NCBI GenBank assembly: GCA_017893485.1
Contig: CM030360.1
Span: 145,204,516-145,268,515 of the forward strand
Direction of reading: 5' to 3'
Source of the DNA: Hemerocallis citrina
Lineage: Eukaryota; Streptophyta; Magnoliopsida; Asparagales; Asphodelaceae
DNA length: 64,000 bases
Under the pieces are notes generated by a model. That model worked only from the letters and a program-made list of their open reading frames with translations. It ran no database searches and was not told the origin of the DNA. The position numbers and the translations under genes are program-made. This document shows, piece by piece, positions 1,416 through 58,292 of this stretch (the first letter of the stretch is position 1; every line of letters begins with the position of its first letter).

Positions 1416-4400
1416 TCAGTATATCACAACGCGAATTAGGCCTGGGCGAGTTTGGGTAAAACTGAGGCCTTCTTCCAAAAGAAAGTGCTCTACAGCAACG
1501 GGGAGCCTGGCAGGAGTCCGAGCGCCCTTGGTGTGGTGGCCTGTCCCCACGCAGATCATGACTTGAAGTCGCTGACCGGTGGATCTTGCAGTGCTCCTCA
1601 AAATGCGCAGCTCATGCGCGAGAACTTGGATGGCCTCATTCACGTGGAGGCCGTGGAGGTCAATCAGACGCTCCTGCATCCGATAATCCTGCCCATCTGG
1701 GTTCCTGCAAAGAAAAACAATTCTCATATTGTTGGTTTGTAATCTACAAGCTACGAAATACAAATATTTCTATTTGGAAACTGCCTCGAACACGTGTCAA
1801 GGAAATGTACCTGAACTACCAGTTTCAAAGTATATTAGAATTTTTAATGTGACAGTGTATGTCTCAGGCTAAGAAGTCGGCGTGTTGGTGCCTGACTTCT
1901 CACATCTAACCAAAGTAGAAAGAGATATAGAGAGAAAATCCTTCTTCCATAAGCATACACGTCCAATAACCCTACAACTTTTCTACACAAACTAGAAATT
2001 TTGCATTTGGTATGAGAATAAATTCTTAAAGTTAAAATGAAAAAAAAACAATACCAATATGCAGATGAATGGTCATATCACATGATAATCTGACCTGAAT
2101 CACACACAATTTTGAGACTACAACATAAATTCATCTCTCGTAGGTTACTGAATAGGATATAAATCTTAAAGTTAGATCTTTTTTTATCAGATACACAGAT
2201 TACTGAAAGCCCACCTTATATACTGAAGTGCACAACTTATGTCAGTTAAGAACTAAGTATGTACAGGAATTCTGTAATAGAATGCAGAGATAGTGGCATC
2301 CACCTGTTGCTAGGATATTCAGAGTACTACAACTAATCGTCATCAAAGCCTTCCCCTCAAACAAAGTTTTAAAGGACGAAGTCAAATAAGTTCTAAGAGC
2401 ATCTGTAGTCGTTTGCCAAATAGCTGAAAACGGAGCTGCAGTCGTTGGCCAAATATGCATATTATGCGTATTTGGCTACAGTAGATTGCCATAAATGAGA
2501 GGCAATTTGAGAATGATCCATATATGAGAGACGGCACTTCAAGTGCCGTCGCACGTTAAAAAAAATAATTTTAATTGTCGGACAGCACTTCGAGTGCCGT
2601 CGCACATAAAAAATTATTTTTTTAATGGTCGGACGGCACTTGAAGTGCCGTCCCACCAAAAAAAAATTAATTTCGTAATATCGTAATTACAAAAAACCAA
2701 AAAGACCCCCACTTCTCGGACGGCACTTGAAGTGCCGTCCCTCCACTTTTTGTGTTTTTTGCGATTTTTGAATTGTTTTTGTAATTTTTTGAAATGTTTT
2801 TGTAATTTTTGTAATTTTTTTGTTGCACTTCGAATCCATTTTTTTCCTCCGACGGCACTTCGAGTACCGTCGCACCTATTAATTTATTTTTTTTTGGCTC
2901 CGACGGAGCTTCATATGCCGTCCCACAAATTTTTAGTGTTTTTTTTTCTCCGACGGAAGATGTAGTGCCGTCGCTTATTATTTTAATATAAAAAGGTAAA
3001 TAATGGCATTTGACGACTGCAGCAAAACCTTCGATTGCTATTTCCATTTATGCATATTTTATCCTTCAACGACTACAGATGCTCTAAGAAAGAATTAACT
3101 AATTATCAGAATATTCCATATTATTCATCTTTTCCAGTAAAGAGAATCAGCCTATAGGTTCTTACTACTGAAGGAATAAGCATGGCTACCATGATGCAGG
3201 TACACTATAAAATAGGAGACAGAAAATGACGAACCTTTGATGGTAAATTGTTTCTCTAGCTTTCCCATGCGCTGCTTTCATTTGCATGTTGTACGACTGC
3301 CCTTTTCTGCTTAACTCCCTCGCAAGAGCCCCATTCCCAATAAGATAAGCTTGTCTTGCCTGCAAGTAATCAGGAAAGGCAGATTAAATTTTTATGTAAA
3401 ACCCATTTCAATTAGAAAGAGCACGTAAACTATAGACACACCTCTGTTAGTCAGCTAAAGCAGAACCCGGGTTAAAGAATAGTATACAAACTACTCGACC
3501 CTAACAGATCAACAATTCAACCTAGTTAGCTAAACCGGATGGATTTCACATTAATGAACAGCAAGGGACCAGGAGACAAGAACCTTCTAGTCAATAGTTT
3601 TTTTCAGAGGCCGACAATAAACCATTATTTATTGGTGGAATTGTCTCTCCAATATGTATAAAATATTCAAGTCATAGAAACTTATCTTATTTTAAATCAG
3701 TGAAATAATACTTTGAATTTAAGAAAATTTTATTTTACGGAAGCCCAAAGTCAAGATTCAGGAGGTGTGAACTTCCCCTCGCCAAGTGGGAGGTGTTTAG
3801 TTCGAAACTCTGCATACACAAAAGCATTGGGGATGTTCAACCAAATATTGAGGTACAATGGTGTCATACTTTTCTTGATCACCCACCGAAATCAATTGCC
3901 CCCCTCAACCAAAACCTTCGCTCCACCACTGCTCAACAATACATTTTTTCCAGATGACATGATCTGCCAAAATATAAGTATTAAAGCAAAAGAAAATGAT
4001 ATGTTTTTTTATGCACAACAGGAAACACCCAAGAGTTCAATGAAACTATGGTGAAGGCTTAGCGGAATAAACTCCTAGATACTCAAGTTTCATTCACATA
4101 AAAATTTTAATTATGTCACTAGATTTATAAAAAGATTAACCGAATACAGAACAAGAGATCAAAAAGAGCATTGGTGAATATCATACTGAGGTTTGTATGA
4201 ATATCAGAGAAAATTGTCACTTCCATTGCTACCTGTTCAAAGCATGCATTTCGAAGTCGCGCATAATCACGAGCATCTCCCCTCAATTCGGAATACATGT
4301 TTGCTGTAATTATCACCATTGGAAACAAATATTTGTTCAGGAAAAAACTAGCCCACCCTTCAGGTATAAGACAACAAAAGAAAACATAGATAAATATGAT

Positions 4401-6379
4401 ATTTGAGTATTACCCACTGCTTCCCCAGTTTCAAGCCAAACAGGATCTGCCTTAACTGAAGAAGAATTTCGCAGTTTATCCCCATAAGCCGATTTTCCAT
4501 TACGATTGAATGAAATGCTTGAAAGCTGTGAGCTTCTACTTGAACCAATGCTCCCCTCACTTATCTCATTCTTCCTAATAACTGAATCCTGAGAAGCAAC
4601 TTTACGAACTGTTGATGCAAAATCAACTGTGCCTCTAGTCAAAGTGGAGGGAGATCTACATGTGTTGGAAGATTGACGAAGATCGTGTCCGTTGAACTTT
4701 GACATCCCATTGATGTATTCTGCTGCAGGAAGTGCAGGAAAGTCGAGCATGCTGAAATTTGGCTCCTCTGAGGACTTCGAGTTTGTGTTCTGACTGAAAT
4801 TTGCATCCTGAAGCTGCAATTGCAGGTTTAATTTTGCAAGTAGAAAGCCTCATATAACCATCGAGTTTTGTAGTATTACTGTTAACAACATAGAATTAGA
4901 AGTTCTATTTACGTGGTATTTAGGAAAGTAATTTTACAATTTGCATTTACATTCCTTTTCATTTTCTAGCCAACTATTAAGGAAACAAATAATAGAATCC
5001 ACAATATAATAGTTCTACCAAAATAAATTAGATTGGTTAGTAAATATTTTATTATATCTTTAATATATTTACATATTTCCTTTTTACCATTTGAAAGCCT
5101 ATAAATAGTTTTAAATAATATTGCAATTAGCAGTTGATAAAATATTTCGATTATATGGTTGGCTCTCTCTCCCCATTCATCCTGTGTTGAGGTTGAAGTG
5201 TTGTATCGTATAGGACATCATCTACCAAGGGAATGTTTTAAGCTTGTAAACATTTTTTCATTACAATATTAATATTTATGTTTAAAGACTAATAAAATAT
5301 CTCCACTGCTTTCTGCACCAAATTTGCTTCTCATTTAAAAACTGAAGGTTACATGCATGAGTCATACACGCACGAGTAACTGCCAATTCCTACAAAATGT
5401 TCCTTCTGAAGAAATAACACTAATAATCATAGTTTAGCTTACCACTAAATTAAGGACATTTCTAGAAATTGATCATCCCTTTAAATAAGCAGCAAAAAGT
5501 TATTGCTTTCAATTAAATTTATAGGAAATAACATGTTTGGTACTGAAATTTGTTTTAATTTTATAATAAATCAGGAAATAATTCTGAACGACTCACAGAT
5601 AACCAATATAATCACACCTCAAGTTCCGTGAGCATCTCAATAGTCAAGCTCAAGTCGCAACTATTTGCGTAATAAACGTCTGCAAGGCTTTCAGCAGCAA
5701 AACCAGGAAACTGGGATGCCAAAAACTCCAAAGGATTCATGACTGCATCTTTATACATAGGGTGCTCACTTGAAGAATCAGACACTACACCAACACTAAA
5801 ATCACCATTGTAACCATTTTCTTCCCTCCCATTAGTAAACATATGATCACCGTCCAAATACCTTTTGTCCCATTCAGCAGTAGTCAATGGTATGAATGCA
5901 TTTGATGTCTGATCATCCGCATATGTGGAGCCTATCCATCCAACATTCTCCCCCAAATTAAAATTGCCAATATCGCGGGGAGATGTGTTCTGATGGAAAC
6001 GAATTAAAGAGCTATTTCCTGATGCAAGGAATCCAGAAGTTTCCACTGCATCATTCAATGACAAATTGGAAAGTGACAACTCTTCTGATGCATGTGTCTC
6101 ATCTCCTCCCATACTTGTAAAATCAGGAGTTATATCATCTGGAAGTTGGTCCCGCCAAAACCTATGTGCTTCGTCATCCGATTTATTTGAAATATTGGAT
6201 TCTGATCGATCAAGGACTGACTTCACAGAACTAACATCTGAAGCCTTGGCATTGGTGTATGGAGACCTAAACGCAGATGGAACAAATTCTGCTGCATTGG
6301 GATTTAAGGAAGTAACTTTCTTTGGGAACCTCAACTTTGAATCCTTGTTATTTGAATAACCTTCAGTTGACAAATTCAT
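1416..6379 (-). CDS. CID7: CID7-like PABP-interacting protein (PAM2-CUE-DUF1771-Smr)
   Basis: A spliced minus-strand gene whose exons I joined by consensus splice sites and reading phase: 6379-5618 (ATG; exon reaches 6473), 4813-4414, 4303-4233, 3359-3235 and 1704-1416 (TGA). The phases fit exactly and give 548 codons, close to Arabidopsis CID7 (about 567 aa). Near residues 25-40 is a PAM2 motif (SLNPNAAEFVPSAF) that binds the MLLE domain of poly(A)-binding protein. Residues about 212-254 look like a CUE ubiquitin-binding helix bundle (PLEFLASQFPGFAAESL). A DUF1771 stretch (ANMYSELRGDARDYARLRN, then RQAYLIGNGALARELSRKG) precedes a C-terminal Smr domain (LIDLHGLHVNEA; GTGHHTKGARTP), a MutS-related fold with nuclease activity in some members. 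All domains look intact. Known family members associate with PABP in the cytoplasm; CID7 itself is an inference from domain order. No frameshifts were seen, so the gene is probably functional. Confidence 0.92.
1705..3234 (-). other. Last intron of the CID7-like gene
   Basis: Bounded on the minus strand by CAAAG|GTTCGTC at 3235 and TTTGCAG|GAACCC at 1704. It is 1.5 kb long and contains the palindrome-bearing TIR element at 2397-3084, which makes up nearly half of its length. Confidence 0.85.
2397..3084. mobile_element. PIF/Harbinger-like TIR element with internal palindrome array
   Basis: Perfect 17-bp terminal inverted repeats (gagcatctgtagtcgtt and its complement) are flanked by TAA on both sides (2394-2396, 3085-3087), the 3-bp duplication typical of PIF/Harbinger elements. 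The interior is not coding. It holds seven versions of a palindrome with arms gacggcactt / aagtgccgtc (near 2530, 2580, 2631, 2719, 2850, 2901, 2953), spaced by T- or A-rich stretches. ORFs over this stretch are simple by-products of the repeats. Confidence 0.75.
3360..4232 (-). other. Intron of the CID7-like gene
   Basis: 873-bp intron between the two DUF1771 exons (donor CAG|GTAGCA at 4233, acceptor TTGCAG at 3360). The middle (about 3740-3950) looks like decayed repeat: it includes a gttcgaaactc word similar to a Pol III B box, and its right part, read on the minus strand, begins agtggtggagcg, a start common in plant dispersed repeats. The repeat class is not identified. Confidence 0.5.
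4814..5617 (-). other. Intron of the CID7-like gene
   Basis: 804-bp A/T-rich intron (donor GAG|GTGTGA at 5618, acceptor AATTGCAG at 4814). I see no inserted element in it. Confidence 0.75.
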
Positions 6380-7363
6380 TTTTCTTTAATGGAATGATAT
6401 ATATTAACTAAATGTGACGTCTTCTTAAACGTCAGAATTAACTCTTAACGAAACCCTGCAATTTATCCCAAGCCTGCAAAATAAACACTTTATTGTCAGA
6501 AGTCAAATAGAAAATGTGACTCAAGCTTGAATTCACCACACAGATAATAAATGTGGCACAGTCAGAATTTATGTTAAAATGCTAGCCAGGAAAAATCTAA
6601 TGCACACATAAATAAAGACTTATGTACATAAAAGCTTGTGCAATCTTAACTTAATTAATGAAACATGAAATAGAAAAAGGATAAAGCTTACACTTTGTTT
6701 TGACTGGACATGCTAGACTGATCATCAAATTATTCTCGACTAAAATATGACTTTACCAACTAATCTAAAATTTTCAGATTTTCATATCGTGTCGCAGTGG
6801 CGGACCCAGATGTTTCAAAATGGAGGTCCCATTAACTTTCAGTAACATACAATGGTTACGGTTTTTTTTAGTAAAAAAAATCAAATTTATTGGCTCGGAA
6901 TAGAAAATCATATCACAAAACTTTTAAATGTATAAATTAAATGATGCATGGATTCTTAAAATAACAACAAAATATTTCACAATTAGGCTCAATCTCTAAA
7001 GAGTACAAGGCTCAGGCAGTCACCCAAAAATCATGACCTCTTGCAATGATGAGGATGACCTTCAGGTAGTTAATCAGCTGTTAAGTATGCGATATTCATA
7101 TGTAGCTATTATCTTTAAAGATTATAATCAACAAATTGAGAAATTCTGAACATTGATCTGTGAATTTTGGTCTTAACTAAATATGTAAATTTGAATTTTA
7201 GCCCTTTCAATTTTGATTTATAAAGTGTGAGTAATTGAGAGATCGAGGCTAGGGATCGTCCAATTCACCCACTGAGAGTATAGAGAATGAGTAATTGAAT
7301 AAGGAAAGAGTAAGATTTAGGTTTTTACTTTTAGCCCTTTTAAGTAAAGTTCACCTTGTAGTA

Positions 7364-10769: not shown

Positions 10770-11525
10770 CGACAGATACAACAAAATCTAAATATATGAG
10801 AGTATAAAAACGAAAACAACAAGGTAAAAAAGATCAACGCTTTGAAGGGTAACCAAGTGACGATCCGTATCAATCCAAAGTGGGCCCAATCATCACCTCC
10901 TCATCGTCGTACTTCTCCACTTTGAAAGCTATGGCGATTCTCCCTCTTGGACATGCCGTCGTTGTTGTAGCGCAAAAGGAAATAAGATATATGATATGAG
11001 TAAGATTACCAGAAATCTATATAATAAAACACAAAAAAAAGCTATCAAGTGGCTCTCCTTCAATCCCCCCAAAATCAAAGGCCCAGATCTAACCTCACAA
11101 AACACATTTTCCCCCCAAAAATTTTCCCCCAAAACTCAAATTCAAATCCCCACCCAAAACAACTCATTTATTTATTTAATTTTTTCTCTCTTTCTCTCTC
11201 TATATCTCTCTCTCTTCTATTCAAAAAATTAAGAAAATAATTTTTTTAAAAAAAAATATTTAAAAGTTTTAACAATTTTAAAAATTGTAAAAAAATTTTA
11301 AATTTTTTAAAAATTTAAAATTTTCTTAAATTTTTGAAAATTTTAAAATTTTTAAAATTTTAAAAAATTAAAAAATTAAAAAAAAATTGAAATTTTGAAA
11401 TTTTCAAATTTTGGAAAATTTTAAAATATTGAAAATTTGAAAATCTCAAAACAAATCCAAATCCAATGTTGAACCCTAATCAAGAGGTCCTCGTCAATAT
11501 CTGATCCGCTGCTGATTCCGTATCG
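10770..11525. other. Intergenic DNA with extreme A/T stretch
   Basis: No gene recognised. Bases 11236-11450 are almost pure A/T made of interleaved aaattttaaa words, a self-complementary low-complexity tract. Bases 11170-11220 are CT-rich. Short ORFs here have no recognisable domains. Confidence 0.5.
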
Positions 11526-11637
11526 GTGACTCCCCTCCACCAAATCGAGCACGAATATCAAGCGACTCCGTATCGGCGACTCCCCTCCACCAAATCGAGC
11601 ACAAATATCAAGCGACTCCCCTCCACCAAATTGAGAG
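11526..11637. repeat. About 50-bp tandem repeat, 2.5 copies
   Basis: Three starts of gactcccctccaccaaat follow each other; the third copy is cut by the LTR element beginning at 11638. The unit could be the start of a coding or leader sequence, but I recognise no product. Confidence 0.7.
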
Positions 11638-11989
11638 TGATACAGTTCTTAAAACTGTATCTTTTTACGTACCAGTCCTTTTATTTACATATCAGTCCTC
11701 TTAGGAATTTCTTTCTTTTAGGTGTTTATTTGCAAAGTTAGTAGTTTTTGTAATAAAGCCCACGGGCTTGCATGTGCTAGTGTTGTCCTCCTCCTCCATT
11801 CTCTTTATATTGAGATGGGGCTTTTTGTATGGGTTTATGTTGAATGAATATGATTTAATCTTCTATCTTCCTCTCCTTCCCTCTCTTCTTCTTCCTCCTT
11901 GCTCTGTTTTCTTCCTTTTTCTTATTTGACTCATGGATGTTATTAGGAGTTGCAACGATCCGTCGCTCAATCGGATCGGGACCGTAACA
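11638..11989 (+). repeat. Left LTR of the gene-capturing element
   Basis: TG...CA ends. It includes a TATA-like word (tttatattgag, about 11803) and an AATAAA polyadenylation signal (about 11752), followed by a CT-rich stretch. It is the direct repeat of 15784-16135. Confidence 0.93.
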
Positions 11990-11990
11990 A

Positions 11991-12003
11991 TGGTATCAGA
12001 GCC
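11991..12003 (+). promoter_or_regulatory. Primer binding site (initiator tRNA-Met)
   Basis: TGGTATCAGAGCC lies one base after the left LTR and is the complement of the 3' end of plant initiator tRNA-Met, the commonest primer of plant LTR retrotransposons. Confidence 0.93.
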
Positions 12004-12174
12004 ACCTCCTTTCCCACAGCTGCCATATCCAAACTTCCCGTCGACCCCTTCGACAAACTCGATCCACCCCCCTCCGACATCCGCATCAACAGTAGCGCTT
12101 CCGCCTCCCTTGGCTTCACCCCTCAGTCGATCAACCACCCAAGTCTTCAAAATCCATCATACTATCCTCCACCA

Positions 12175-12897
12175 ATGCCTCAAAATCCTCAACCTCAGCA
12201 CTACAAATTGCTGAACCGTAACTCTAGTCTTTGCCCTCTTTTCGGGTCAGCAGCAGCAGCATCCACTCCATATTTTTCCTCTTCAAACTCCACTTCAATC
12301 ACCCTTGACAACTATCTTTACTCAACTCCTCACACCAGCTACTCAACTGCAGCCCCTCCTGATCACAACGCCTATGGGAAGGGAAGCCCACCAGCAATCC
12401 GAGATCCTTATGCTTTTGATGGGTTGGGTTTCGGGACAACTACGGCTACTGTTACCACCCCTTCCACCTCTTCATTTCTTGTTGGTTCTCACGCACAATC
12501 CAGCAACCCGCCTACCGTTCGACGAAATTCCCCAGAGAAACAGACTATGAATTCACAAGATTTCAGCCCTATTCCCTCGAACTCCAACTGCTCATCAAGT
12601 GTTCGACCAAATGCTTCTTCGATTCTGTCAACCCAAATCACCCCTGAAACGATGCTAGATTACTATTGCGATATTTGTCTGGTTGATTGCTCCTACAAAA
12701 GGTACAAATACAACCGGTTGAGAGATTATTATTTGTGCATTGGTTGTTTTACTCGTGAAGAATCGGAGTTGAGATTAGATCTGTTAGATTACAGTTACAT
12801 AGACGATGATGAGAGAAAATTTGAGGTGCTAGAATACCACTGCAATCGTTGTCTCCTCAATTGTACCACAAGCACTACCGCTGCAACAAATTCTTAG
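12175..12897 (+). CDS. ORF 1 of the element: Ser/Pro-rich leader plus ZZ-type zinc finger
   Basis: The frame is open from inside the LTR; the first ATG after the primer site is at 12175 and gives 240 codons. Residues 1-160 are Ser/Pro/Thr-rich and unrecognised. From about 12661 comes a zinc-finger-like segment (CDICLVDC ... LCIGCF) whose Cys spacing matches the ZZ finger of the plant SWI/SNF subunit SWI3D. A second similar segment begins at about 12838 (HCNRCLLNC) but the frame is lost near 12860; its remainder ([15 protein letters not shown]) continues at the start of ORF 2. One cysteine of the first finger is replaced by tyrosine. The SWI3D assignment rests on spacing and general resemblance. 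Whether this ORF is translated is unknown. Confidence 0.55.
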
Positions 12898-14441
12898 ACT
12901 ACCATTTGTGCCCCATTTGTTTGACTAATGAAGACTTTGAATTGGGTTTGACTCCAAGAGACTTTCTTCTTGTAAAGACGTTGGGTAGTCAAGGAGTTTC
13001 ACCTACTCAAGTTGATGTTGTTTCTGAGGAGAATGATGGTGAATTGGCAGTCGAGAACAATGAAGAAGACCAAGAAAGTGAAGCATCAAAGCAAGATGCT
13101 GAGGCATCTTCAAGTCAGTATTTCAACAATCCTGAAGGTCCCTTTTCCCCTAAGCCAATGCCAGTTGTGGAAGTTTCTTTAGGTGAAATTCAATCCACGG
13201 TGATTGCTGTTTTGGAAGAGAATGTGGAAGCTTTAGTGGAGCAACACCGGTGTATCAATATTGGAAGCCTTTATGCTCAGGTCAAAGGGCTGCACCCTTG
13301 GGCTGATGCTAAACTCGTGAAGGAAGTAATTGATGCCAAGCTTGTTGAGATTCTTAGTGAGAGGACTGCAGAAGATGATAAAAAGCCTTTGAGAAAGAAG
13401 AAAGAAATACCTGTGAAAGATGATGTGGAACAGAAGAATATTACTTCTCCTTCTGCCGCACTAGTAGTTGAGGAGTTAAATCCATTTTCCATGTTTCCAT
13501 CACCTAAAGAGAACTTCAAGGCGGAAGAATTAAAGAGAAAGTCCAATGAGCCTTATGCATACAAGCGGGACAAAAGTCATACAGCAAACCAACTCCAAGA
13601 TATTTACAGTCAACTCAAAAATGATGAAGAGCATTTGGAAGATGGCGTGTCAGTTGCAGGAAGAATTGTTCCTTGTAGAGCATTTGGTAAACTTGCTTTC
13701 TTGACGCTAAGAGACGACTTGGGAACAATCCAGCTTTCCTGTGAGAAAGAAGGCCTTGTAGAGAATCAGTTTGAACAGTCGAAGACATATGTGTACATTG
13801 GTGAATGGCAACTCATGTATATACATTCGACAAAAGCCCAACAGATAATTGAGTTAAAGAGTCTACGCTGCCAAATTGATGAGCTATTTCCTTCTAGTAA
13901 GGAAACTGTGCTTCACTACGATGAGGTAGAGAAAGTAGATTTTGGAACCCATGTAGATATGCATACTGTTGATTGTTCATTTACAGTGACATTCAATCAC
14001 ATGTTTAATCCATTGCTTGAGGCTTCAAGGGTGGCTACCAATCTGAGAATTAAGGAATCTGGATGCTTTTCTTACAAGATGAAAGAGAGCTATGTTGCAG
14101 CATTGTCTATTTTCAACCATATTAAGTGTTCAGAAGATGTTGTTGAAAGAACAAATTCGAAGGTATCACATGCTGTTTGTGATCTGGGTCTATCAAGAGC
14201 GAAGCGATTTGTTTTTGATCCAGGATCTGAGGTTGTCGAGAATGAGAAGGACAAGACCCATCCAAATGCTGAGCGGATGTGCATACCTGCACCAAGTGTC
14301 GAGCAATTTGTTAATGTTGTAAAAGCAACGGTTCTAGCAGACAAGCATTGGGTTCCTCCTGCAGGGAAGGGATCCATGTACAAGTGCTGTGTTCCCATTT
14401 TTGTTGGAGTAGGAGGCAACTGGATCCTGAAACGATTGTGA
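12849..14441 (+). CDS. ORF 2 of the element: chimera of five or six host-gene fragments
   Basis: A 530-codon open frame, read from the first codon after the ORF 1 frameshift. Reading along it: residues 1-45, rest of a ZZ finger; about 103-224, N-terminal domain of glutaminyl-tRNA synthetase; about 225-320, OB-fold region of organellar lysyl-tRNA synthetase; about 350-405, methionine aminopeptidase 2; about 412-453, a segment resembling cohesin factor PDS5; about 470-520, branched-chain aminotransferase. No introns are present, so the sources were spliced mRNAs. No fragment contains a complete catalytic domain, so enzymatic activity is not expected; a chimeric protein or a source of small RNA are both possible. 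The preservation of one frame through five junctions is notable. Confidence 0.75.
13155..13521 (+). pseudogene. Captured fragment: glutaminyl-tRNA synthetase N-terminal domain
   Basis: The translation reads [19 protein letters not shown], then [20 protein letters not shown], then [17 protein letters not shown]. This is the non-catalytic N-terminal domain of plant GlnRS and the linker leading to the catalytic core, which is not included. Confidence 0.8.
13522..13820 (+). pseudogene. Captured fragment: lysyl-tRNA synthetase anticodon-binding region
   Basis: The segment [20 protein letters not shown] followed by [20 protein letters not shown] and [19 protein letters not shown] matches the OB-fold of the organellar-type plant LysRS. 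It joins directly in frame to the GlnRS fragment and stops before the catalytic domain. Confidence 0.85.
13890..14065 (+). pseudogene. Captured fragment: methionine aminopeptidase 2
   Basis: The translation [14 protein letters not shown] ... [17 protein letters not shown] is the MetAP2 core strand region. Two metal-binding aspartates (in DFGTH and TVDC) are retained, but the glycine after THVD is methionine here and the rest of the catalytic domain is absent. Confidence 0.82.
14082..14210 (+). pseudogene. Captured fragment: possibly cohesin factor PDS5-like
   Basis: The stretch [20 protein letters not shown] followed by DLGLSRAKR resembles a HEAT-repeat segment of plant PDS5-type cohesion proteins. 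Recall-based and short, so tentative. Confidence 0.4.
14256..14420 (+). pseudogene. Captured fragment: branched-chain aminotransferase
   Basis: The translation [20 protein letters not shown], then [11 protein letters not shown], is a conserved N-terminal part of PLP-dependent branched-chain aminotransferases. The PLP lysine lies outside the fragment. The frame changes to that of ORF 3 at about 14415. Confidence 0.85.
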
Positions 14442-15538
14442 GCTCTGTCTTTGATGGATCAGCCGACTTCAGTTACCCTTCTGAATCAGAGTTCCAACTA
14501 TATAGAATTCTTGAAGTGGATTATGGTGCGAGGCATGCTAGGTTGCAAATTTGTGCATCATTCATTCGGATTGCAAGAGTTGCTGACCAAAGTCTACTTC
14601 CTCACATGAAGGGTTTGGCATCTGTGCAGATGCTCATGCAATTTGAACAAGGAATTGGAAGGCACATACCTGAATTATTTGATATAATTTGTGGCACATC
14701 CACTGGTGGTATGCTCGCAATTGCTCTTACGATAAAACAAGTCACCCTGGATCACTGTGAGGAAATATACAAACGATTAGGGAAACCTGTGTTTGCTGAA
14801 CCTATTAATCTTGAAACAAAAAGGAGACAAGAAGAGATGAAAGCCAAAGAAGCTCAAAGCAGAGCAGTAACTGAATATGGGGAATTAACACTTATTACTG
14901 TTGATATTTCACAAGTTTCAACAAATGAAAGGGGGTCACTCAGACCTCCAATGTTGCAGGTAGCTCAATTGGCCTCATTTCAACATGCTCCTTCTATACC
15001 ACCATTCATAGCAATACCCAGGCCGACCAGAATGAATGAGGAGGATATAATTAGTCAAAGAGAGGTAGAAGATAGAAAAGTTAGTGAAGTTGTAGTTGCA
15101 GGTGGAGGGATCTCCGTAACAGTCACCTACTTTCCTCATGAACAAAAATGGCCCATTGGACCTCTCGTTGTTGTTGGTGTCAGAGATGAAGTTCTTTGGC
15201 TCACTGACAGGTATATTTGTGCACATGCTTTGGTTCTCAACCATCTAAGTATCCATTACCGGTGTCTTGCTGCCTATGGAGATGTTGTTAGTGCAATGGA
15301 ATGGGTTAGTAGGCTTGGCCGTGAGCACCGCGATGATCTGACACAATTCACGCTTGGAATGAGACATGCAACTGAAGCTCTTCATTTACCAGGAATATCT
15401 AAAAGGTTGGAGTTTGACTTGGTCATGCAGAGCAGTGACTTGAAAAGAGCTCCTCATTGCCTGTTGACAATGAGCTGCAGGGATGTTGTGCAAGAAAATG
15501 CCAGCACAGATATACCAAGATGGAACTCCATTCAATGA
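14415..15538 (+). CDS. ORF 3 of the element: exportin-like, phospholipase and TWD40-1 fragments
   Basis: An open frame running from about 14348 (its own sense begins near 14415) to the TGA at 15536-15538, up to 396 codons. It starts with an unassigned piece, then a HASTY/exportin-5-like piece. It switches to a patatin-type phospholipase at the shared atgaaggg word (14606-14613). From about 14807 it continues with a large piece of the TSET adaptor subunit TWD40-1 ([39 protein letters not shown]). No introns. After 15538 the homology to known families ends. Confidence 0.65.
14520..14613 (+). pseudogene. Captured fragment: possibly exportin-5/HASTY-like
   Basis: The segment [20 protein letters not shown] ending HMKG resembles a HEAT-repeat stretch of plant HASTY. 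The identification is by recall of the SLLPHMKG word and is tentative. Confidence 0.38.
14606..14806 (+). pseudogene. Captured fragment: patatin-like phospholipase A
   Basis: The translation [16 protein letters not shown] ... [19 protein letters not shown] ... [15 protein letters not shown] matches plant calcium-independent, patatin-domain phospholipase. It includes the nucleophile elbow GTSTG (GxSxG). The oxyanion glycine run and the catalytic Asp are not within the fragment, so it is not a working enzyme. Confidence 0.85.
14807..15500 (+). pseudogene. Captured fragment: TWD40-1-like (TSET complex)
   Basis: About 230 codons resembling the region downstream of the WD40 repeats of TWD40-1, a subunit of the plant TSET/TPLATE membrane-trafficking adaptor: [71 protein letters not shown]. 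It is the longest captured piece. Confidence 0.65.
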
Positions 15539-15770
15539 TCAAGTTCATGACAGACGATACATACCTGGTTCTTATATCCCTCTCGAGTACTGTTATTATA
15601 TAAGTTCCATTGAAGTTGTGATGAAGATACCGGCTTTAAGTTTTACAACCAAAGGAGGAAGATGCGTAGGGAAGAAATATGGGATATTATCACATATTGG
15701 AGATGTTTTGGGAGAGGCCCCTTAAGGTTGAAAAAGATCGTCACGTTGACCTTGAGGACAAGGTCAAATT
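15501..15770 (+). other. Unassigned 3' interior of the element
   Basis: The last 270 bp before the right LTR. One frame is open over 15483-15725 but is not recognised. The end, with the word gaccttgaggacaaggtc, resembles the end of the pol gene in many plant LTR elements and may be a true retroelement remnant. Confidence 0.4.
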
Positions 15771-15783
15771 AAGGGGGAAGGAT
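15771..15783 (+). promoter_or_regulatory. Polypurine tract
   Basis: aagggggaaggat lies immediately before the right LTR, the expected primer for plus-strand synthesis. Confidence 0.85.
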
Positions 15784-16135
15784 TGATACAGTTCTTAAAA
15801 TTGTATCTTTTTACGTATCAGCCCTTTTATTTACGTATCAGTCCTCTTGGGAATTTCTTTCTTTTAGGGGTTTATTTGCAAAGTTAGTAGTTTTTGTAAT
15901 AAAGCCCACGGGCTTGCACGTGCTAGTGTTGTCATCCTCCTCCATTCTCTTTATATTGAGATGGGGCTTTTTGTATGGGTTTATGTTGAATGAATATGAT
16001 TTAATCTTCTATCTTCCCCTCCTTCCCTCTCTTCTTCTTCCTCCTTGCTCTGTTTTCTTCCTTTTTCTTATTTGACTCATGGATGTTATTAGGAGTTGCA
16101 ACGATCTGTCGTTCAATCGGATCAGGACCGTAACA
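15784..16135 (+). repeat. Right LTR of the gene-capturing element
   Basis: 352 bp, the direct repeat of 11638-11989 with about 12 substitutions and no indels by hand count; flanked on the right by the target duplication gagag. Confidence 0.93.
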
Positions 16136-17214
16136 GAGAGCCTCTATATGCGATGAGACGACTCTAATTTCATCTCATTAACCGAATTCTCATTCTAATT
16201 TTTAATTTTTTGTGTGCAGAGGATTACTCAGTTTTTTGCTGACTCGAATTTTGTGTGTGCATGAGATTTTAATTCAGAGATGTATGATTGTTTTATTTTT
16301 GGATTTAAAAATTTTTAATTTAGTAATTTATTTGATGAGTTTTTTATTGATTTTGATTTAAGGTGTACGCAAGTGAGAGATGGATTATTTGGTGGCCTCA
16401 ATTTGGGCTTCCAAACCATAGCAGGACAGGTAAGCTGACTAGCAACCTAAAATAACTTGACAAATATGCAACATTAATTTCTTTACTACAAGAGAAAATA
16501 CTATCGTAAAGTGTTCCCTTCACTGGTTATTAGAAACCATGGATAACATAACATGTAACAACTTTTAGTGTATGTTTGGATATATAGAATTGGGATGACT
16601 GGAGTTTACCGGTGAAGGGTACAAACTCTCCACTCAAGAAAGACAGCTAAAATAAATTTGTTATTTATCCTTTTTGATTTTTTTTATAAAGGTGCAATGG
16701 GGAGATAAAGTGGAGATAAAAGAAATGATTAGCTTGGATTAGAGTTTTGAGAACTTCATGTATTTTATTTTGGTTGAAATAATAATAAAAGGTATTTCAA
16801 TTGCAAACTGAGTCTCAGACAAACAAATATTTAGATTATTAATATTGTAGATACCTTCACACATGAACTTGCGTTGCCATTGTATTTAAATATGCTCATA
16901 GTGGTTATGGGATTAGAGTAAGCTCTATAAAATCTATATGATAATGCCCTTGCATAACTATTACAAGCATCTAAAAGTGATGCTAAAGTTAAAAAAAACT
17001 CTATACAGTGTTTGTAACAAACTATATGCATTCCAGGTAAGTTCAAGCTAATGATTAAGAAGGCGATGGTTGAGCTTAAAGATAGATATATTGCTTTCTC
17101 ATATAATATGTTTGCTACTTTAATTAATTTGCTGGACCACTAAAACTATTTTATAGAATCAAACCAGGTGCACAATCTGAAAACGTGCCATAGGCACGTG
17201 TCAACAGGCAAACC
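16136..17214. other. Unannotated A/T-rich DNA
   Basis: Continuation of the target sequence of the preceding element. No ORF, RNA gene or repeat with clear ends was recognised. Confidence 0.4.
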
Positions 17215-32621: not shown

Positions 32622-32860
32622 TTTTGTCCAAAGCTTTTTTTTCTTTTTTTTAAAGTGGAAATAATTTTTCCCCATGCTCATTTGACATTTGAATGTCAAA
32701 TGTCATGTTTGCCCTTTGTGTTCTTTTTGGGTTCCTATAAATTGCATGCTTTGAAACTTCACAGATTCATACACAATCGAGTTTAGAAGAATTCTCTTCT
32801 TAATCTCAAAAAAATTTTGCTTCCCTTTCCAATTAAAATTTTGTTCGCCGTGAAAAAAAA
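32622..32860 (+). promoter_or_regulatory. Former promoter and leader of the mobile-domain gene
   Basis: Contains cctataaattg (about 32736-32746), a plausible TATA box 110-120 bp before the ATG of the next gene, and a pyrimidine-rich leader. A palindrome, catttgacatttgaatgtcaaatg in sense, spans about 32678-32702. Confidence 0.4.
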
Positions 32861-33651
32861 ATGGCATCGACAATCAAAATATTTATTGGAAGAGTCAAAT
32901 CAAGACGTCACGGCGAGTCTGGACAATCACGCAAAAGAAGTGAAGACGAATCAACCCCGTCTGTAAATTATAGCGATCCATCTGAGTGGAACAGAGTTTT
33001 CGATGATCGACAACACGTACATCAGCTAATTACCGACCATCCTATCGGCGGATTTGTTAGATTCATAGGGAATTGGAAGAGTCCGATAAAAGCTTCCAAG
33101 CTAGTTTGCACCATACCTCTAATTAAGCAATTGATCGACAATGCCAGCTGGGAGCGTTTTTTTACTATCGATACGGAGAAGTCATCGGTGCGGCTTGTTG
33201 AGGCATTGCTTGAAAGATGGTGGGACACGATCCACACTTTCCACCTTCCAGGCGGCGAGTTGGGATTTACCCCGTTAGACTGGGCAATGCTAACAGAATT
33301 ATCTATTGGAGTCAGGTGATGTACAACCGTGTAACGATGATGCATACCCCTTTGATATTGTCCAGGCTCGGTTCTTTCTAGAAATTACAGCAGAAGATTG
33401 GAAATCTTATGGAATACGTTGCTCATTCTTGAAGAAGTATTTTCAGAAGGAATGGATCGAAGCCGCTAAGACAGATCCTCTAGTGGCAATGAAAGTTGTC
33501 AAAGCTTTCTTCATGTACTCTGTGGGTGAGTTTCTCCTACCCAATGCTTCTTCGGTAGTTAGATGTGGTTTCCTTGCAGCTTTGAAGATCTAAACCTAGT
33601 TGGCACGTATGATTGGGGAAGTCCCACATTGGCATTGCTATATTTGTCTTG
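32861..33651 (+). pseudogene. Plant mobile domain (PMD) gene fragment
   Basis: Starts at ATG 32861 and reads through LIKQLIDNASWERFF and LLERWWDTIHTFHLPGGELG then FTPLDWAMLTELSIG, the start of the aminotransferase-like plant mobile domain of MAIN/MAIL proteins and related transposon genes. The frame breaks at about 33317 and resumes in another frame (NDDAYPFDIVQ ... PNASSVVRCGFLAAL), then shifts again (DLNLVGTYDWGSPTLALLY). It is cut at about 33651 by the neighbouring LTR copy. Two frameshifts plus truncation make it a pseudogene. It may derive from a transposon-carried copy. Confidence 0.75.
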
Positions 33652-39561: not shown

Positions 39562-41252
39562 GTATCAATCTCAGATGAAGCAACTTGTTTGCAAGTCCGT
39601 CCATCTCTAGGTAAATTAAGAGCTAGAGTCTTAGGTGAGGAAGACGGTTATGCCTCCTTAGTTGGCACCGTCTTCTCTAGAACAAATTGGATCAGATAAG
39701 CTTCCTCAAATGTGTAAAATTTAGTGAATCTAGGCACGAGATCGATGTTAAGGCTTCAAATGAGCACCCACACCAAATTAGATCTCTTCACTGTCTTGAG
39801 ATCAATAGATACCATCGACTCGAATTCCACAAGGATTTCTTGAATTACCTCATTCCTCCAACAATGGAGAGGGATGTTATGATCCAAATCCAGTATGCAT
39901 TACCATGTGGTAATTCAACAGCAAAATTAGGGGTCCATTATGAGAATTGAGCTGTAAAATGCCCGAAATTTACTACCTCCATAGTAATCATATCAGCGAG
40001 ATTTTCTGGCGAGGGAAAAGAGACTAGGAATTGAATGTGGAAAATCTTCTTGACCACCCATTCTCTGTGACCCCTCATTGGCCATCGAGAATTGAGGACA
40101 TCTAGAAGATGATTCTCTGAAGGTCTTCCAGACTTAATTTTTGCAAACCCACACCATTTGTGGAGCCATTGCTCTTCTTTCTTGACAACTGGTAAACTAT
40201 TGATTAGTTTGATATAAGTGGGGTTCTCCGGTGATCTCCCCCTTAGAACTGTTCTTTTCTCATTTTCAGGATTGGAAGATACATTAGAACAAACATATGA
40301 CATGTGTCCCCACTTTAGACATTTTAAGCACCGTACCTCCTTGGTACACTCATCATGAACATGGCCTAAATCTTCGCAGTTAAAACAAGGCTTCAGTTTC
40401 TTTTCCCTTTTCAGCAGGACTTCATGAATCCGTTAGCATTCAACTTCTTCTTATTAGTCCTTCTTGTTGCTTTACTGTCCATTCTCACCCATTCTTTCTA
40501 TGTTGGGTTAACTTGTTGTACAATATGAACATAAGAATTTTGATCTCTGGTAGGCGAGACTGGACTCCCTTGTGGAGCCCTAGCAGTTGCCGGAGGAGGC
40601 TCGAGTGGCAGAATACTATGATGTACCTCAGATTCATTGTGATGTTCCTATATAGGGAGAAGTTTAGGAGGGGAAGGAGAAGTGGAGTGTTGATGTACTT
40701 GTTGGCCACCAATGTGCTTGTTAACTGAGGTTGAGGGATTGTTGGAAGGAGATTGTGGGTGAGTTGAAGGTGGTGGGAATTGGGGAGCCTTCTTCTAAAT
40801 GTGTACTTGGTGTTGCTGAATAGAATGGAGTTTGGGGGCAAAATATTTGTGATACTTAGTTGTTTCATCTTCAACCCATCTTCTTCTGCTGTCCACAGCG
40901 ATGGTCAGACCCCCTGAAATTCCTCCTGTCTAGACATAATGGACAAGTTGAGAGACCGTCAACAATCCTATGTGGGGGTTCTTTTATGCCAACCCCGGCT
41001 TGTAGGAGGACCCCCTCTAGCAACCCATCCTAAAGGCGGAGAAGTTGAGTGATGATGACAATGACAAAAGTCCCTATGTGCCTGATGGTGGTCTCTCTGA
41101 GGCCTAAACTGGGGCAGAAGAAATCTTCTGAGCTCATCTTTGTTATGACTATGGGACGACCATCGTCCGTAGTGCTTCTACGGACATCGCCTGTGAGCGC
41201 GTGGTGTGGGATTATGATGGATTTGGAAGGTCTGATGAGGTGGCAGTGCAGA
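39562..41252 (-). pseudogene. Decayed retroelement ORF with CCHC zinc knuckles and DUF4283-like region
   Basis: On the minus strand, 40400-40300 encodes CFNCEDLGHVHDEC and CLKCLKWGHMSYVC, two CCHC knuckles. Downstream (about 40303-39940) is CGFAKIKSGRPSENHLLDVL ... FHIQFLVSFPSPENLADMI, resembling the DUF4283 region of plant LINE ORF1 proteins. Upstream (to 41252) the frame is Pro/Ser/Gln-rich with stop codons. It probably continues beyond the TRIM cluster at 46446-46640. The order knuckle then DUF4283 is unusual for LINE ORF1, so the class is uncertain. Confidence 0.5.
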
Positions 41253-51897: not shown

Positions 51898-52485
51898 TGA
51901 TATGGCTAAAAATGGGGTTAAATCGGAACCGTCCAGATTGGGCACGAATCTTGATGCTCGGGGGTAAAAAGGTAATTTCATATACAAGCGGATCCAAAGC
52001 GGGTACTGAATCTCCTTCTCGCAGATCCAATAACCCGCGAATGGATCCACACCTATTGGGTACGGGTTCCGACCCGAGACGAACCCAAATCAACAAGAGA
52101 CAAATCAGGATCCATGATTTGGCCAAATCAATGGCCTTGATTTGCTCTCACCGGGAATCAAGGAAAGATTTCCTAAACAGACTGAGGATTTTGCTCCCGG
52201 CTGTTAGACAGGAAATCAGACCCTTAAACAACTCCCCTGGCGACTATAAATACGACCCCTCTGCCTCCATGACCAGGTTAATCACTTTTTCACCACTTAA
52301 GCTCTTTCTTAATCTTTTCTGATTACTGACAAGAGCGTCGGAGGGTGCGTCACCGGAATCAACCCCGGTGTTTCGCACTTCCTTGCAGGTCGCGGCAGGA
52401 GCAAGAAGGCAGAGTCAACTGTTCTGGTTTTTCTCGGACTCACAAATTCTATCTGTTTACCCCCACACCGAAATCAGCGGTAACA
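51898..52485 (+). repeat. 5' LTR of the Tat element
   Basis: The right end is clear (cagcggtaaca at 52485, three bases before the primer site). The left end is proposed at TGATATGGC (51898), where microsatellite gives way to unique sequence; the true start could be further right. A TATA box (ctataaatacg, about 52245) is present. Confidence 0.6.
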
Positions 52486-52488
52486 GAT

Positions 52489-52507
52489 TGGCGCCGTCTG
52501 TGGGAAC
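52489..52507 (+). promoter_or_regulatory. Primer binding site of the Tat element
   Basis: tggcgccgtctgtgggaac. The first nine bases complement the 3' end of tRNA-Asp; the rest does not, so the primer tRNA is uncertain. The same word is common at this place in plant Tat-type elements. Confidence 0.7.
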
Positions 52508-52553
52508 TACCACACAAACAGCCTCAGCCCTTTCCTTGTCGTCCTCTCCAATC

Positions 52554-54446
52554 ATGCCTCCAAAGAAAGTCAGATCAAGAGGGTCAAACCGGGTGGTCGA
52601 TCCCGCCAACCCTACGGAGGAAGCCCTTATCAATCCTATCCCTCAGTCCGATCTTCCTCCGCCGACCCAGCAGGTCCCACCTCCTCATCCCAAGCAACAA
52701 CCCAACAATGGCCCTTCCGGCCCTAACGGCCGGAAACAGAAGCAGCCCCTCAATGGGGACCATGTCTCGATCCATAATGGGTCCTCGGACTCGATGGCTT
52801 CCCATAATCCCGACCTCCGCCAGATGCTCCTGAACCGCCAGAGGGAAGACGACCTCTGCACTCACCTTGACGAGAGGCGGGCCCGAGAGGGAGCCTCCCA
52901 CCAGCGTCAGGGTGAGCGGTCCCCTCGTCGCCGAGACGGTAGGAGGTCTCCGGACCGCAGAGGTCGAGCGGTGTCTCCCGAGCACCGAAGGAGGAGGCCG
53001 CATTCCCCCGGGGATCGGCGTCATCCGAGGGACCGAGAGGTGCCTATCAGTCGGGCCGAATTCCTCCAGTTTCAGGAGACCGTTCTGCAGGCTCTCAACC
53101 TTCGGCAGAACGTCCAGAATGCTCAGAGGGCTCCGACCCCTCCAAGGGACCCCAGTCCTCGCCGCCGAACCCGAAGCCCTTCCCCGGCTCCCAGCCACCA
53201 GCGGCAGCAATATAGTCCTCGCCGATCCCAGGACTACCGGCGCCAGAGTCCGCGCTCCCCCTCCTATGAAGAGGAGTCCGGGGGGTCGTACGATTACCAG
53301 CGAAGGGACGACGCCCTCATCTGCCGTATCCACGAGGTGGAAAGGCGTATCGGCCGCATGGACAGGGAGGAGGAATCCCGAGCAGGAACCTTTCGTCCCA
53401 GCCGACCCCCCTTCTCACGATCGATCATGGAGGCCCACATACCGAGGAGTTTCAAACCGCCACAGTTTGAAACATACTCAGGGGAATCTGACCCGGTCGA
53501 TCACGTCGAAAGCTTCAAGACCCTGATGCTGATCCATCAAGCTTCCGACGCGGTGCTCTGCAGGACCTTCCCTGCCACCCTCAGGGGGTCGACTCGGGAA
53601 TGGTATTCCAGGCTCGCCCCCTCATCCATCTTCTCATTCGAGCAGTTCGAGACGCTGTTCATTACTCACTTCGTGAGTAGCAGGCGAGCCGAGAAGACAA
53701 GTCTTTCCCTACTGAACCTGCGGCAGGAAAGGGAAGAGAAGCTGCGGGACTATGTGAAGAGATTCACCGCAGAGGTCAGGTCTATCGCCTCCTTAGACCA
53801 GTCCGTGGCCACCGTGGCGTTCCAGTCGAACGTCCTTAACGCCAACCTCCGATCATCCCTAGCCAAGAAGCCCCCGCATGACTTCGCTGACCTCCTCCTG
53901 AGGTGCGAGAAGTACATCCGAGCAGAGGAGGCTGAAGCCCTTCCGAGCTTCGGAGGGCCCTCCACAGGGTCGAAGAGGAAGGCGACGGGGGAAGAGGGGT
54001 CCAAGAAAGCTCAGAAGGACATCGGCGGTCAGTGCCGCCCTCCCCCCAGGTTCGAGAAGTTCACTCCCCTCACCACTAATGTCTCTACTATCCTAATGGA
54101 GGTGGAGAAGGAGGGGGTCATCCCTCCGGCTCTGAGGATGCACACCCCAGCGAAGAGGAGGAACAAAGATAAGTGGTGTTGTTACCACCGAGACCACGGC
54201 CACGACACGAATGATTGCCGGGCTCTGAGAGATGAGATTGAAGCCCTCATCCGGAGAGGGCAGTTGGCCAAATTCGTGAAGGCTAACGATCGGACAGATT
54301 GCAACTCTCCTCCGCCTCGGGGGGCTAACAAGCGCTCCGAGCGGCACGAGGAGACACCCGAGTTCGAGGAGGAACGGGTTCTGCACCTGATCCACGGAGG
54401 CCCCATGGGGGGCTCCTCTAATTCCTCCCGGAAGGCCTTCGTCTGA
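52554..54446 (+). CDS. gag: Gag of the Tat element
   Basis: Starts at ATG 52554 (MPPKKVRSRG), 65 bp after the primer site, and ends at TGA 54444-54446, 630 residues. The N-terminal third is disordered and Arg/Pro/Ser-rich (RRRTRSPSPAPSH). The retrotransposon gag core lies in the middle (REWYSRLAPSSIFSFEQFE ... NLRQEREEKLRDYVKRF). A C-terminal zinc-binding-like motif reads CCYHRDHGHDTNDC, typical of Tat gag. Gag forms the particle and packages RNA. The stop separating it from pol lies in the same frame as pol and is probably a mutation (see findings). Confidence 0.9.
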   Translation: MPPKKVRSRGSNRVVDPANPTEEALINPIPQSDLPPPTQQVPPPHPKQQPNNGPSGPNGRKQKQPLNGDHVSIHNGSSDSMASHNPDLRQMLLNRQREDDLCTHLDERRAREGASHQRQGERSPRRRDGRRSPDRRGRAVSPEHRRRRPHSPGDRRHPRDREVPISRAEFLQFQETVLQALNLRQNVQNAQRAPTPPRDPSPRRRTRSPSPAPSHQRQQYSPRRSQDYRRQSPRSPSYEEESGGSYDYQRRDDALICRIHEVERRIGRMDREEESRAGTFRPSRPPFSRSIMEAHIPRSFKPPQFETYSGESDPVDHVESFKTLMLIHQASDAVLCRTFPATLRGSTREWYSRLAPSSIFSFEQFETLFITHFVSSRRAEKTSLSLLNLRQEREEKLRDYVKRFTAEVRSIASLDQSVATVAFQSNVLNANLRSSLAKKPPHDFADLLLRCEKYIRAEEAEALPSFGGPSTGSKRKATGEEGSKKAQKDIGGQCRPPPRFEKFTPLTTNVSTILMEVEKEGVIPPALRMHTPAKRRNKDKWCCYHRDHGHDTNDCRALRDEIEALIRRGQLAKFVKANDRTDCNSPPPRGANKRSERHEETPEFEEERVLHLIHGGPMGGSSNSSRKAFV

Positions 54447-57400: not shown

Positions 57401-58292
57401 CCTATCAAGTCCCATCCCCTTCGCAATGTAGGGCATGGACTTACTAGGGCCCTTCCCTCCGGCTCCGGGTCAGTTCAGGTTCTTGGTCGTAGCCATTGAC
57501 TACTTCTCGAAGTGGGTCGAGGCCGAGCCCCTCGCCACTATAACCGAGAACAAAGTGGTACAGTTCTTCTGGAAGAGCATCATATGCAGGTTCGGCGTCC
57601 CCCGTGTCCTCGTAACGGACAACGGGACTCAGTTCACAGGCGCAGCGTTCCGAGCTCTATGCGACGACCTTGCCATTCAGCAGCGCTTCTCGTCCGTCTC
57701 CCACCCTCAGTCGAACGGACAGGCAGAAAATGCTAACCGGCAGATCCTCGCAGGCATCAAGAAAAGGCTCAACAAAAGTTCCAAGGGTTTATGGGTCGAC
57801 CAACTCCCCAACGTCCTATGGAACTACCGCACGAGCAAGCGGACCCCCACAGGCGAGTCCCCTTTCAACCTCACCTATGGGTCCGAGGGCGTGATACCTC
57901 TTGAGGTCGGAATACCTTCCCCTCGGCTCACAGCCTATGATGAAGCACAGAATGCCAGGGACCTCAGAGCAGACTTAGACTTGATAGATGAGCTAAGGGA
58001 AAGGGCGTCGATTCGGCAGCAGAGTTACCGAAGAAGAGTTGAACTAGCGTACAACAAAAGGGTCCGACCCGCCAACCTTAAGCGAGGAGATTTGGTCTTG
58101 AGGAAGCTAGCCATATCCTTCCCCAGTCAGAAGAGCAAGCTGGCTCCGAACTGGGAAGGGCCGTACAGGATCACAAAGGTAGTTCGGCCCGGAACATATC
58201 GCCTCGAAGACCTAGAGGGCAGAGAGCTTCCGAGGACCTGGAATGCCGACCACCTCCTGAAATACCAAAAGAGCGCTCCGACGCCACTCTAA
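54447..58292 (+). pseudogene. pol: Pol polyprotein of the Tat element, interrupted by stops
   Basis: In the same frame as gag. Protease (about 54540-54890; active site VDNGSS at 54600). Reverse transcriptase (about 55200-55990; RICIDFTDLNKACPKDPFSL, active site YVDDM at 55704-55718). RNase H (about 56035-56370). Archaeal-type RNase H (about 56535-56920; [30 protein letters not shown]). Integrase with HHCC finger (57229-57365), core with DLLGPF, VTDNGTQF and GQAEN (57435-57730), and a C-terminal part ending at TAA 58290-58292. TAG stops at 55674-55676, 55761-55763 and 57429-57431 break the frame, the first two flanking the RT active site. No frameshifts seen. Confidence 0.9.

Follow-up and report, generated by a model that had tools for sequence, protein, structure and literature searches.

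Pieces of host genes are collected at the DNA level by Pack-MULEs and Helitrons. Gene capture by long terminal repeat (LTR) elements has mostly been a matter of single or few genes in the literature covered, so far as the available texts go. Bs1 of maize is described in the accessible part of a 2026 review as an LTR element with pieces of three host genes and a fused reading frame (PMC13317346). LTR-mediated retroduplication has been reported from pepper and other plants, with about 72% of retroduplicated NLRs in elements without gag or pol and, in some cases, two or three genes within one LTR element (PMC5664825, available text). A survey of maize B73 counted 425 intact LTR elements with gene fragments and, under its conditions and as far as its available text goes, no single LTR element that combined fragments from two or more standard nuclear genes (PMC2774510). 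The element described here lies in a stretch of 64,000 nt (the window) of contig CM030360.1 in the Hemerocallis citrina assembly GCA_017893485.1, and all coordinates are window positions. At 11638-16135, this stretch contains a 4.5-kb LTR retrotransposon whose cargo consists of spliced pieces from ordinary host genes, at least seven in number.

Like Pack-MULEs and Helitrons, the window element has collected host-gene pieces; unlike theirs, its cargo lacks the donor introns and its ends are LTRs. With Bs1, to which it is likened from the published description, it shares intronless host-gene fragments inside an LTR element, the mark of Bs1-like transducing elements, and a fused frame. In contrast to the three genes of Bs1, at least seven are found in this one copy, and the cargo of its family varies by member, with blocks exchanged (compare PMC13317346, accessible part). 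Spliced genes inside LTR elements that have often lost gag and pol are also known from pepper, but a chain of many fused fragments such as this is not described in the available text of that report (PMC5664825). The maize B73 elements likewise hold gene fragments, whereas the window element is multi-gene (PMC2774510, available text). Nothing similar is described in the accessible portions of a rice and sorghum survey (PMC3726574) or of a review of extra open reading frames (PMC7264820). In the literature searched, which consisted largely of open-access papers in their available text, no LTR element was reported to hold more than three genes.

The two LTRs of the window element are direct repeats of 352 bp each with TG...CA ends, 12 mismatches and no gaps. 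Together with the short target-site duplication (TSD), primer site and purine tract, they identify an LTR retrotransposon. The two 352-bp LTRs, the duplication, the primer site and the purine tract had been proposed in the initial annotation, made from the sequence alone, and all were confirmed. The 12 differences in 352 positions correspond to an insertion age of about 1.3 million years at a rate of 1.3e-8 (PMC5664825, available text). The longest reading frames in the element are 316, 538 and 407 codons. No Pfam match to gag, reverse transcriptase or integrase was obtained in four translated frames (316, 538, 407 and 83 codons, together 11947-15725), and none of the autonomous Ty3/gypsy set (gag, protease, reverse transcriptase, RNase H, integrase) was present in these frames, so that the annotated lack of gag-pol holds across this span. 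The features of the element are as follows.

11633-11637, no strand: left copy of the 5-bp TSD, GAGAG
11638-11989, + strand: 5' LTR (TGATAC...GTAACA), also matched elsewhere in the plant's own genome
11990-11992, + strand: ATG overlapping the primer site, start of a long frame (MVSEP...) in several relatives
11991-12002, + strand: primer-binding site TGGTATCAGAGC, which we take to be of the initiator tRNA-Met type
12003-12654, + strand: leader encoding a Pro/Ser-rich stretch, partly common to other members
12655-12977, + strand: double stretch of ZZ-type zinc finger, with matches at many further genome positions
13167-13520, + strand: GlnRS fragment; two native introns absent, end exactly at the native exon end
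13521-13804, + strand: organellar-type LysRS fragment; start exactly at the native exon start, 6.8-kb native intron absent at 13733/13734
13893-14063, + strand: MetAP2 fragment, by protein match only
14267-14381, + strand: BCAT fragment, by protein match and by DNA match to a BCAT-like copy with stop codons that is not a proven donor
14416-14612, + strand: exportin-5 fragment that combines portions of exons 1 and 3 of the native gene, with 174 nt missing
14605-14805, + strand: phospholipase A I (patatin) fragment, lacking one intron of the native gene and overlapping both neighbours by bases shared at the joins
14797-15514, + strand: TWD40-1 fragment; three native GT-AG introns absent
15690-15783, + strand: 3' internal end common to other members, the start of the match varying by member (15634-15730)
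15771-15782, + strand: polypurine tract AAGGGGGAAGGA, adjoining the 3' LTR
15784-16135, + strand: 3' LTR
16136-16140, no strand: right copy of the TSD, GAGAG

The stretches 13805-13892, 14064-14266 and 14382-14415 lie between the assigned modules. Immediately upstream, window 11514-11637 holds a 50-bp unit repeated in tandem about 2.5 times, with the element at its end and a long AT-rich palindromic stretch adjoining.

The annotated pieces of GlnRS, LysRS, patatin phospholipase and TWD40-1, and the exportin-5 piece that had been named as possible, were substantiated by protein matches and by donor genes in the plant's own genome. These genome searches covered 3.78 Gb in 701 contigs; L-numbers label loci and C-numbers contigs. 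The GlnRS piece is 62% identical to Iris GlnRS across a 123-column alignment, the LysRS piece matches at 72-74% across 94-96 residues and the TWD40-1 piece at 75% across 239 amino acids. The exportin-5 piece was detected by Pfam at 5.7e-8; the patatin piece fell below the Pfam cut-off (2.5e-4) and matched phospholipase A I at 79-80% across 66 residues. MetAP2 was verified by protein match, at residues 358-413 of the 538-codon frame. The BCAT match (residues 481-532 of the same frame) was weak when taken alone (PDB E 0.0064; NCBIfam 1.4e-4), and the DNA of this piece is 90% identical to a BCAT-like copy in the genome. Similarly, the ZZ finger of the window copy stayed below the Pfam cut-off (0.017) and rose above it in relatives (2.6e-6 in L038, 7.6e-6 in L033). 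The ZZ stretch is not peculiar to the window element: among 214 first-look places, the 40 scored, the window's own included, all showed 81-100% identity, and in most of them the match stops at or near 12977. A possible PDS5 piece, also annotated, was supported by none of the searches run. The top matches among named species were from non-grass monocots (Iris, Asparagus, Dendrobium, Elaeis, Musa and Canna); phospholipase A I was the exception, its first-ranked match being a magnoliid gene model in which an exon is repeated. Among the 347 matches listed (all 107 of one set, the best 120 of 374 and the best 120 of 255), no protein hit two or more modules at E < 0.01. The high-scoring Asimina protein P0228 was suspected to be a related fusion and turned out to be a gene model with a repeated exon.

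For five modules (GlnRS, LysRS, phospholipase A I, TWD40-1 and exportin-5), intron-bearing donor genes were identified. Seven donor introns are absent from the window element exactly at the splice sites, two from GlnRS, one from LysRS, one from phospholipase A I and three from TWD40-1. In the native TWD40-1 on C11 (L057), the three GT-AG introns measure about 1.2 kb, 1.04 kb and 80 bp, and all of them are missing from the element at exact exon borders. Native LysRS genes on C1 and C2 each gave 11 exon matches, over 22.8 kb and 15.0 kb, and the element fuses two LysRS exons across a 6.8-kb native intron. The two missing GlnRS introns are present in the native gene on C6 (L066), and the missing phospholipase A I intron in the genes on C9 and C7. 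Native exportin-5 was located on C2 (L075), and the sister elements L035-L037 hold its exons 1-2-3 spliced. A stretch of 174 nt in these sister elements, at one time taken for a retained intron, is exportin-5 coding sequence. These 174 nt are missing, with the frame kept, from the window element, L015 and two others, and the missing part may be read as exon 2 (176 nt) less its last 2 nt. With seven donor introns lost exactly at splice sites and the exportin-5 introns absent as well, the comparison of sequences shows that the GlnRS, LysRS, phospholipase A I, TWD40-1 and exportin-5 pieces passed through spliced RNA, that is, that these five modules are of spliced-cDNA origin. The annotated intronless nature of the cargo and the exon-exon joins expected of it were thus borne out, with joins at native splice sites and the exportin-5 introns also absent.

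Two further sets of intronless copies were encountered. The elements L033 (C673) and L034 (C6 270.75 Mb) hold almost all of the LysRS coding sequence (residues ~85-569, with stops), free of the native introns, and this stretch exceeds that of the window copy. L040 (C6 254.97 Mb) and L041 (C2 347.83 Mb) are intronless TWD40-1 copies with an identical insertion and a 9-bp duplication, CCAATGTTG; since both carry the same insertion, one of the two probably arose from the other by duplication. Their 661-665-bp gap was considered as an intron and proved to be an insertion with inverted ends and the 9-bp duplication, and these copies are therefore not counted as donors.

The window element belongs to a family. 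A search of the genome with its LTR gave 577 first-look places, 40 of which were scored, and 36 of these 40 form 18 pairs lying 3.5-4.7 kb apart. Twenty regions were taken, 18 of them with two LTRs, which with the window element makes 19 paired-LTR members. These share the LTRs, parts of the leader and, in most compared pairs, the last 40-55 internal bases. Their cargo falls into seven types with exchanged blocks.

Type A: window element and L015
Type B: L009-L011 and L016; Pfam matches to thymidylate synthase, Nrap and 5MP
Type C: L012-L014, L019 and L020; Pfam matches to isocitrate dehydrogenase (1e-70 in L019), NnrU, PPR and peptidase C13
Type D: L017 and L025; Pfam match to Foie-gras
Type E: L021; Pfam matches to Nop (below cut-off) and HAD hydrolase
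Type F: L018, L022 and L028; Pfam matches to armadillo repeats and IF-2B (L018) and WDR3 (L022)
Type G: L023 and L024

Single matches to MA3, Nop, UCH and the GlnRS domain, like that to ZZ in the window copy, lie below the Pfam cut-off. Places reached through shared modules or the primer-site pattern held further cargo: deoxynucleoside kinase, FtsJ, phosphofructokinase, ORC/CDC6-type AAA, pyruvate kinase and UCH. No matching LTR was seen in the portions read of L038, L039, L046, L055, L056, L058 and L069, so GIDA (2e-108), EHD and NTF2 are cargo of less certain members. Exchange of blocks is evident in several mosaics: L015 joins the 3' cargo of type A, at 95%, to a 5' part of type B; L016 has 2.5 kb in common with type B and then differs; and in L019 and L020 one block is replaced relative to L012-L014. 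The block from MetAP2 to exportin-5 recurs in L031 and L032 at 95-96%. Much of the window cargo thus recurs in other members as differently combined blocks, and its assembly need not have taken place in the window copy. On this point the initial annotation was incomplete. LTR divergence ranges from 1/344 (0.3%) to 24/352 in the 16 measurable members, 12 of the 16 measured have an exact 5-bp TSD, and the family has moved recently. The 5' LTRs of L019 and L020 end in AAAA instead of CA. A 24-base LTR/primer-site pattern with up to two mismatches occurs at 239 genome places and a 31-base purine-tract pattern with up to three mismatches at 221, each with no occurrence of the reversed control; other elements that have this junction are included in both counts. 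Family 3' ends and ZZ modules cluster locally, as if from tandem or segmental duplication, at C9 238.17-239.63 Mb and C10 227.24-227.41 Mb.

Both donors could be read at three joins, to which the statements on joins refer. At the GlnRS/LysRS join, where a native exon end meets a native exon start, the donors share AGGT (4 nt); at the exportin/phospholipase join they share CATGAAGG (8 nt), and at the phospholipase/TWD40-1 join ACCT (4 nt). The 3' end of the LysRS piece falls inside an exon. A poly(A) tail and a TSD for each piece, the signs of LINE processed pseudogenes, were not seen at any of the three joins, where the pieces abut directly. The filling of a retroelement with intronless many-gene pieces by way of RNA, as first annotated, thus stands; the template switching between packaged mRNAs annotated with it is favoured by the 4-8 shared bases and would be the probable source of the joins.

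The family is most likely descended from a Ty3/gypsy retrotransposon. Six primer sites sampled among the two-mismatch places included two full-type Ty3/gypsy elements with gag (L067, with Retrotrans_gag at 1.4e-11, and L068) and one locus, L069, with an NTF2 domain. The gag of L067 and L068 starts (MVSE) at the same ATG as the primer-site ATG of the family. The N-terminus of the L012 frame (DLSQRVKNIEISMGSLQDQ...RSLIE) is 44% identical over 39 residues to L067 gag (DLEQRMEGVEISMGDIQTQ...RSLME) and 33% over 40 to that of L068. Comparison of the L067 LTR with the family LTR gave no similarity. The 3' tail of the element can be read as DLEDKVKLRGKD, which may resemble the end of a chromovirus pol.

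Taken together, these elements probably form a Ty3/gypsy-derived non-autonomous family that depends on trans-supplied proteins and turns over its cargo by template switching. In such a family, host-gene coding fragments joined to one another would have taken the place of gag-pol, and copying would be carried out in trans by proteins from related full elements. Reverse transcriptase would occasionally jump between element RNA and co-packaged host mRNAs, and also between RNAs of different family members, so that cargo is gained, lost and reassorted. The element itself would require its ends alone, namely the LTRs, primer site and purine tract. Copies with a long open frame seem to be favoured, perhaps since translated RNA escapes nonsense destruction.

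The frames themselves are long in several members. Single frames from the primer-site ATG extend over 1013 codons in L012, 1102 in L013, 1075 in L014 and 1190 in L019; L021 has a frame of 772 codons. Among 17 element-like places matched by GlnRS protein, 12 lie in frames of 735-963 codons and five, the window included, in frames of 83-584. The seven identified modules all run in the sense direction, and in L015 they share one frame with a single stop, the six joins all being in frame (chance about 1/729). Because other long frames were searched for being long, no statistic is drawn from them. Comparison of the window copy with the native donors gave 0 stops in 441 codons against 5.5 expected neutrally from 96 non-synonymous differences (P 0.004), in frames known beforehand to be open, which biases toward this result. 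The ratio of non-synonymous to synonymous divergence (dN/dS) in this comparison was 0.63-1.51; the phospholipase piece and the more distant phospholipase gene on C9 gave 0.16, with a dS of 0.75. No selection on amino acids was seen between copies, where the sequence evolves about neutrally. The simplest reading, held with moderate confidence, is that the open frame is kept while the amino-acid sequence is not. We see roughly an even chance that this is a still-moving, retro-exon-shuffling family which lives on in-frame fusions of host cDNA, keeps the frame open but not the amino acids, and in this way goes on making new multi-domain frames from dozens of host genes.

Several results weigh against these proposals. 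Many members have broken frames (L009, L017, L018, L022, L028 and others), and the donor test was limited to frames whose openness was known in advance. When copies were compared with each other, the coding frame gave dN/dS values (0.48-1.41) no lower than those of the other frames (0.25-1.21), and the stop deficit, 7 against about 12 expected after correction for frame choice, was not significant (P 0.09; nine of 12 comparisons run, with members shared among them). Splicing between transcripts would give the same GlnRS/LysRS join, which lies at exon borders of both donors. Finally, no full gag-pol element with the same LTRs, the autonomous partner that had been suggested, was found among 33 primer-site/purine-tract pairs built from the first 100 listed of each pattern (of 239 and 221). 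The interior measures 1.9-4.1 kb in 31 of these pairs, and the other two, of 8.0 kb (read whole) and 11.8 kb (9.7 kb read), are chimeric too. L064 and L065 had been considered as long candidates for the partner and are chimeric, their extra length resembling nested insertions by eye.

Other explanations were weighed against trans-mobilization with template switching. Captures might be real but very old and rare, the present variety having arisen by recombination among a few ancestral chimeras. Long common blocks, such as that of L031 and L032, agree with this, but the seven cargo types have only the ends and small parts in common and bring unrelated genes, and we regard this history as unlikely.

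Alternatively, the joins may predate reverse transcription: trans-splicing or read-through could have linked different transcripts, and the element would then have captured an mRNA that was already fused. The exact meeting of native GlnRS exon end and LysRS exon start would fit, as would the exportin-5 piece, in which exon 2 looks skipped, all but its last 2 nt being gone. However, the LysRS piece ends within an exon, and the apparent skip in exportin-5 misses the exon border by 2 nt. Exon borders have the letters AG/GT in common, so that switching templates over 4 nt produces the join that splicing would produce. This route is judged improbable.

Fragments collected at the DNA level, in the style of Helitrons or Pack-MULEs or by nested insertion and repair, and later spread by LTRs, would have ample precedent in maize, where the available text of PMC2774510 credits Helitrons with 1194 captures and other DNA transposons with 462. 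Such gathering is disfavoured, and very improbable, given the seven donor introns missing exactly at splice sites in one copy, with the exportin introns missing too, and the common sense direction of the modules, in one frame in L015. An assembly or library artefact joining cDNA to genomic DNA, for which no supporting point was found, is refuted by independent, diverged copies, which lie at numerous loci and have LTRs and TSDs of their own, and its probability is negligible.

If the reading of a trans-mobilized family that switches templates and keeps its frame open is true, the elements would provide a join-by-join record of the way in which spliced exons are assembled into new genes by reverse transcription, and of how often this happens. 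They would also offer a way to ask whether translation of element RNA is needed for movement.

Elsewhere in the window, a Ty3/gypsy gag-pol in several frames occupies 52323-58292 (gag 6e-13, reverse transcriptase 2e-13, RNase H and integrase), and a Transposase_28 open reading frame at 62614-63573 lies on the strand opposite to it. Minus-strand frames at 4337-6385 resemble host-gene exons, one of them with a PAM2 motif, and weak plant-mobile-domain and zinc-knuckle open reading frames are present at 32837-33316 and 39938-40429.

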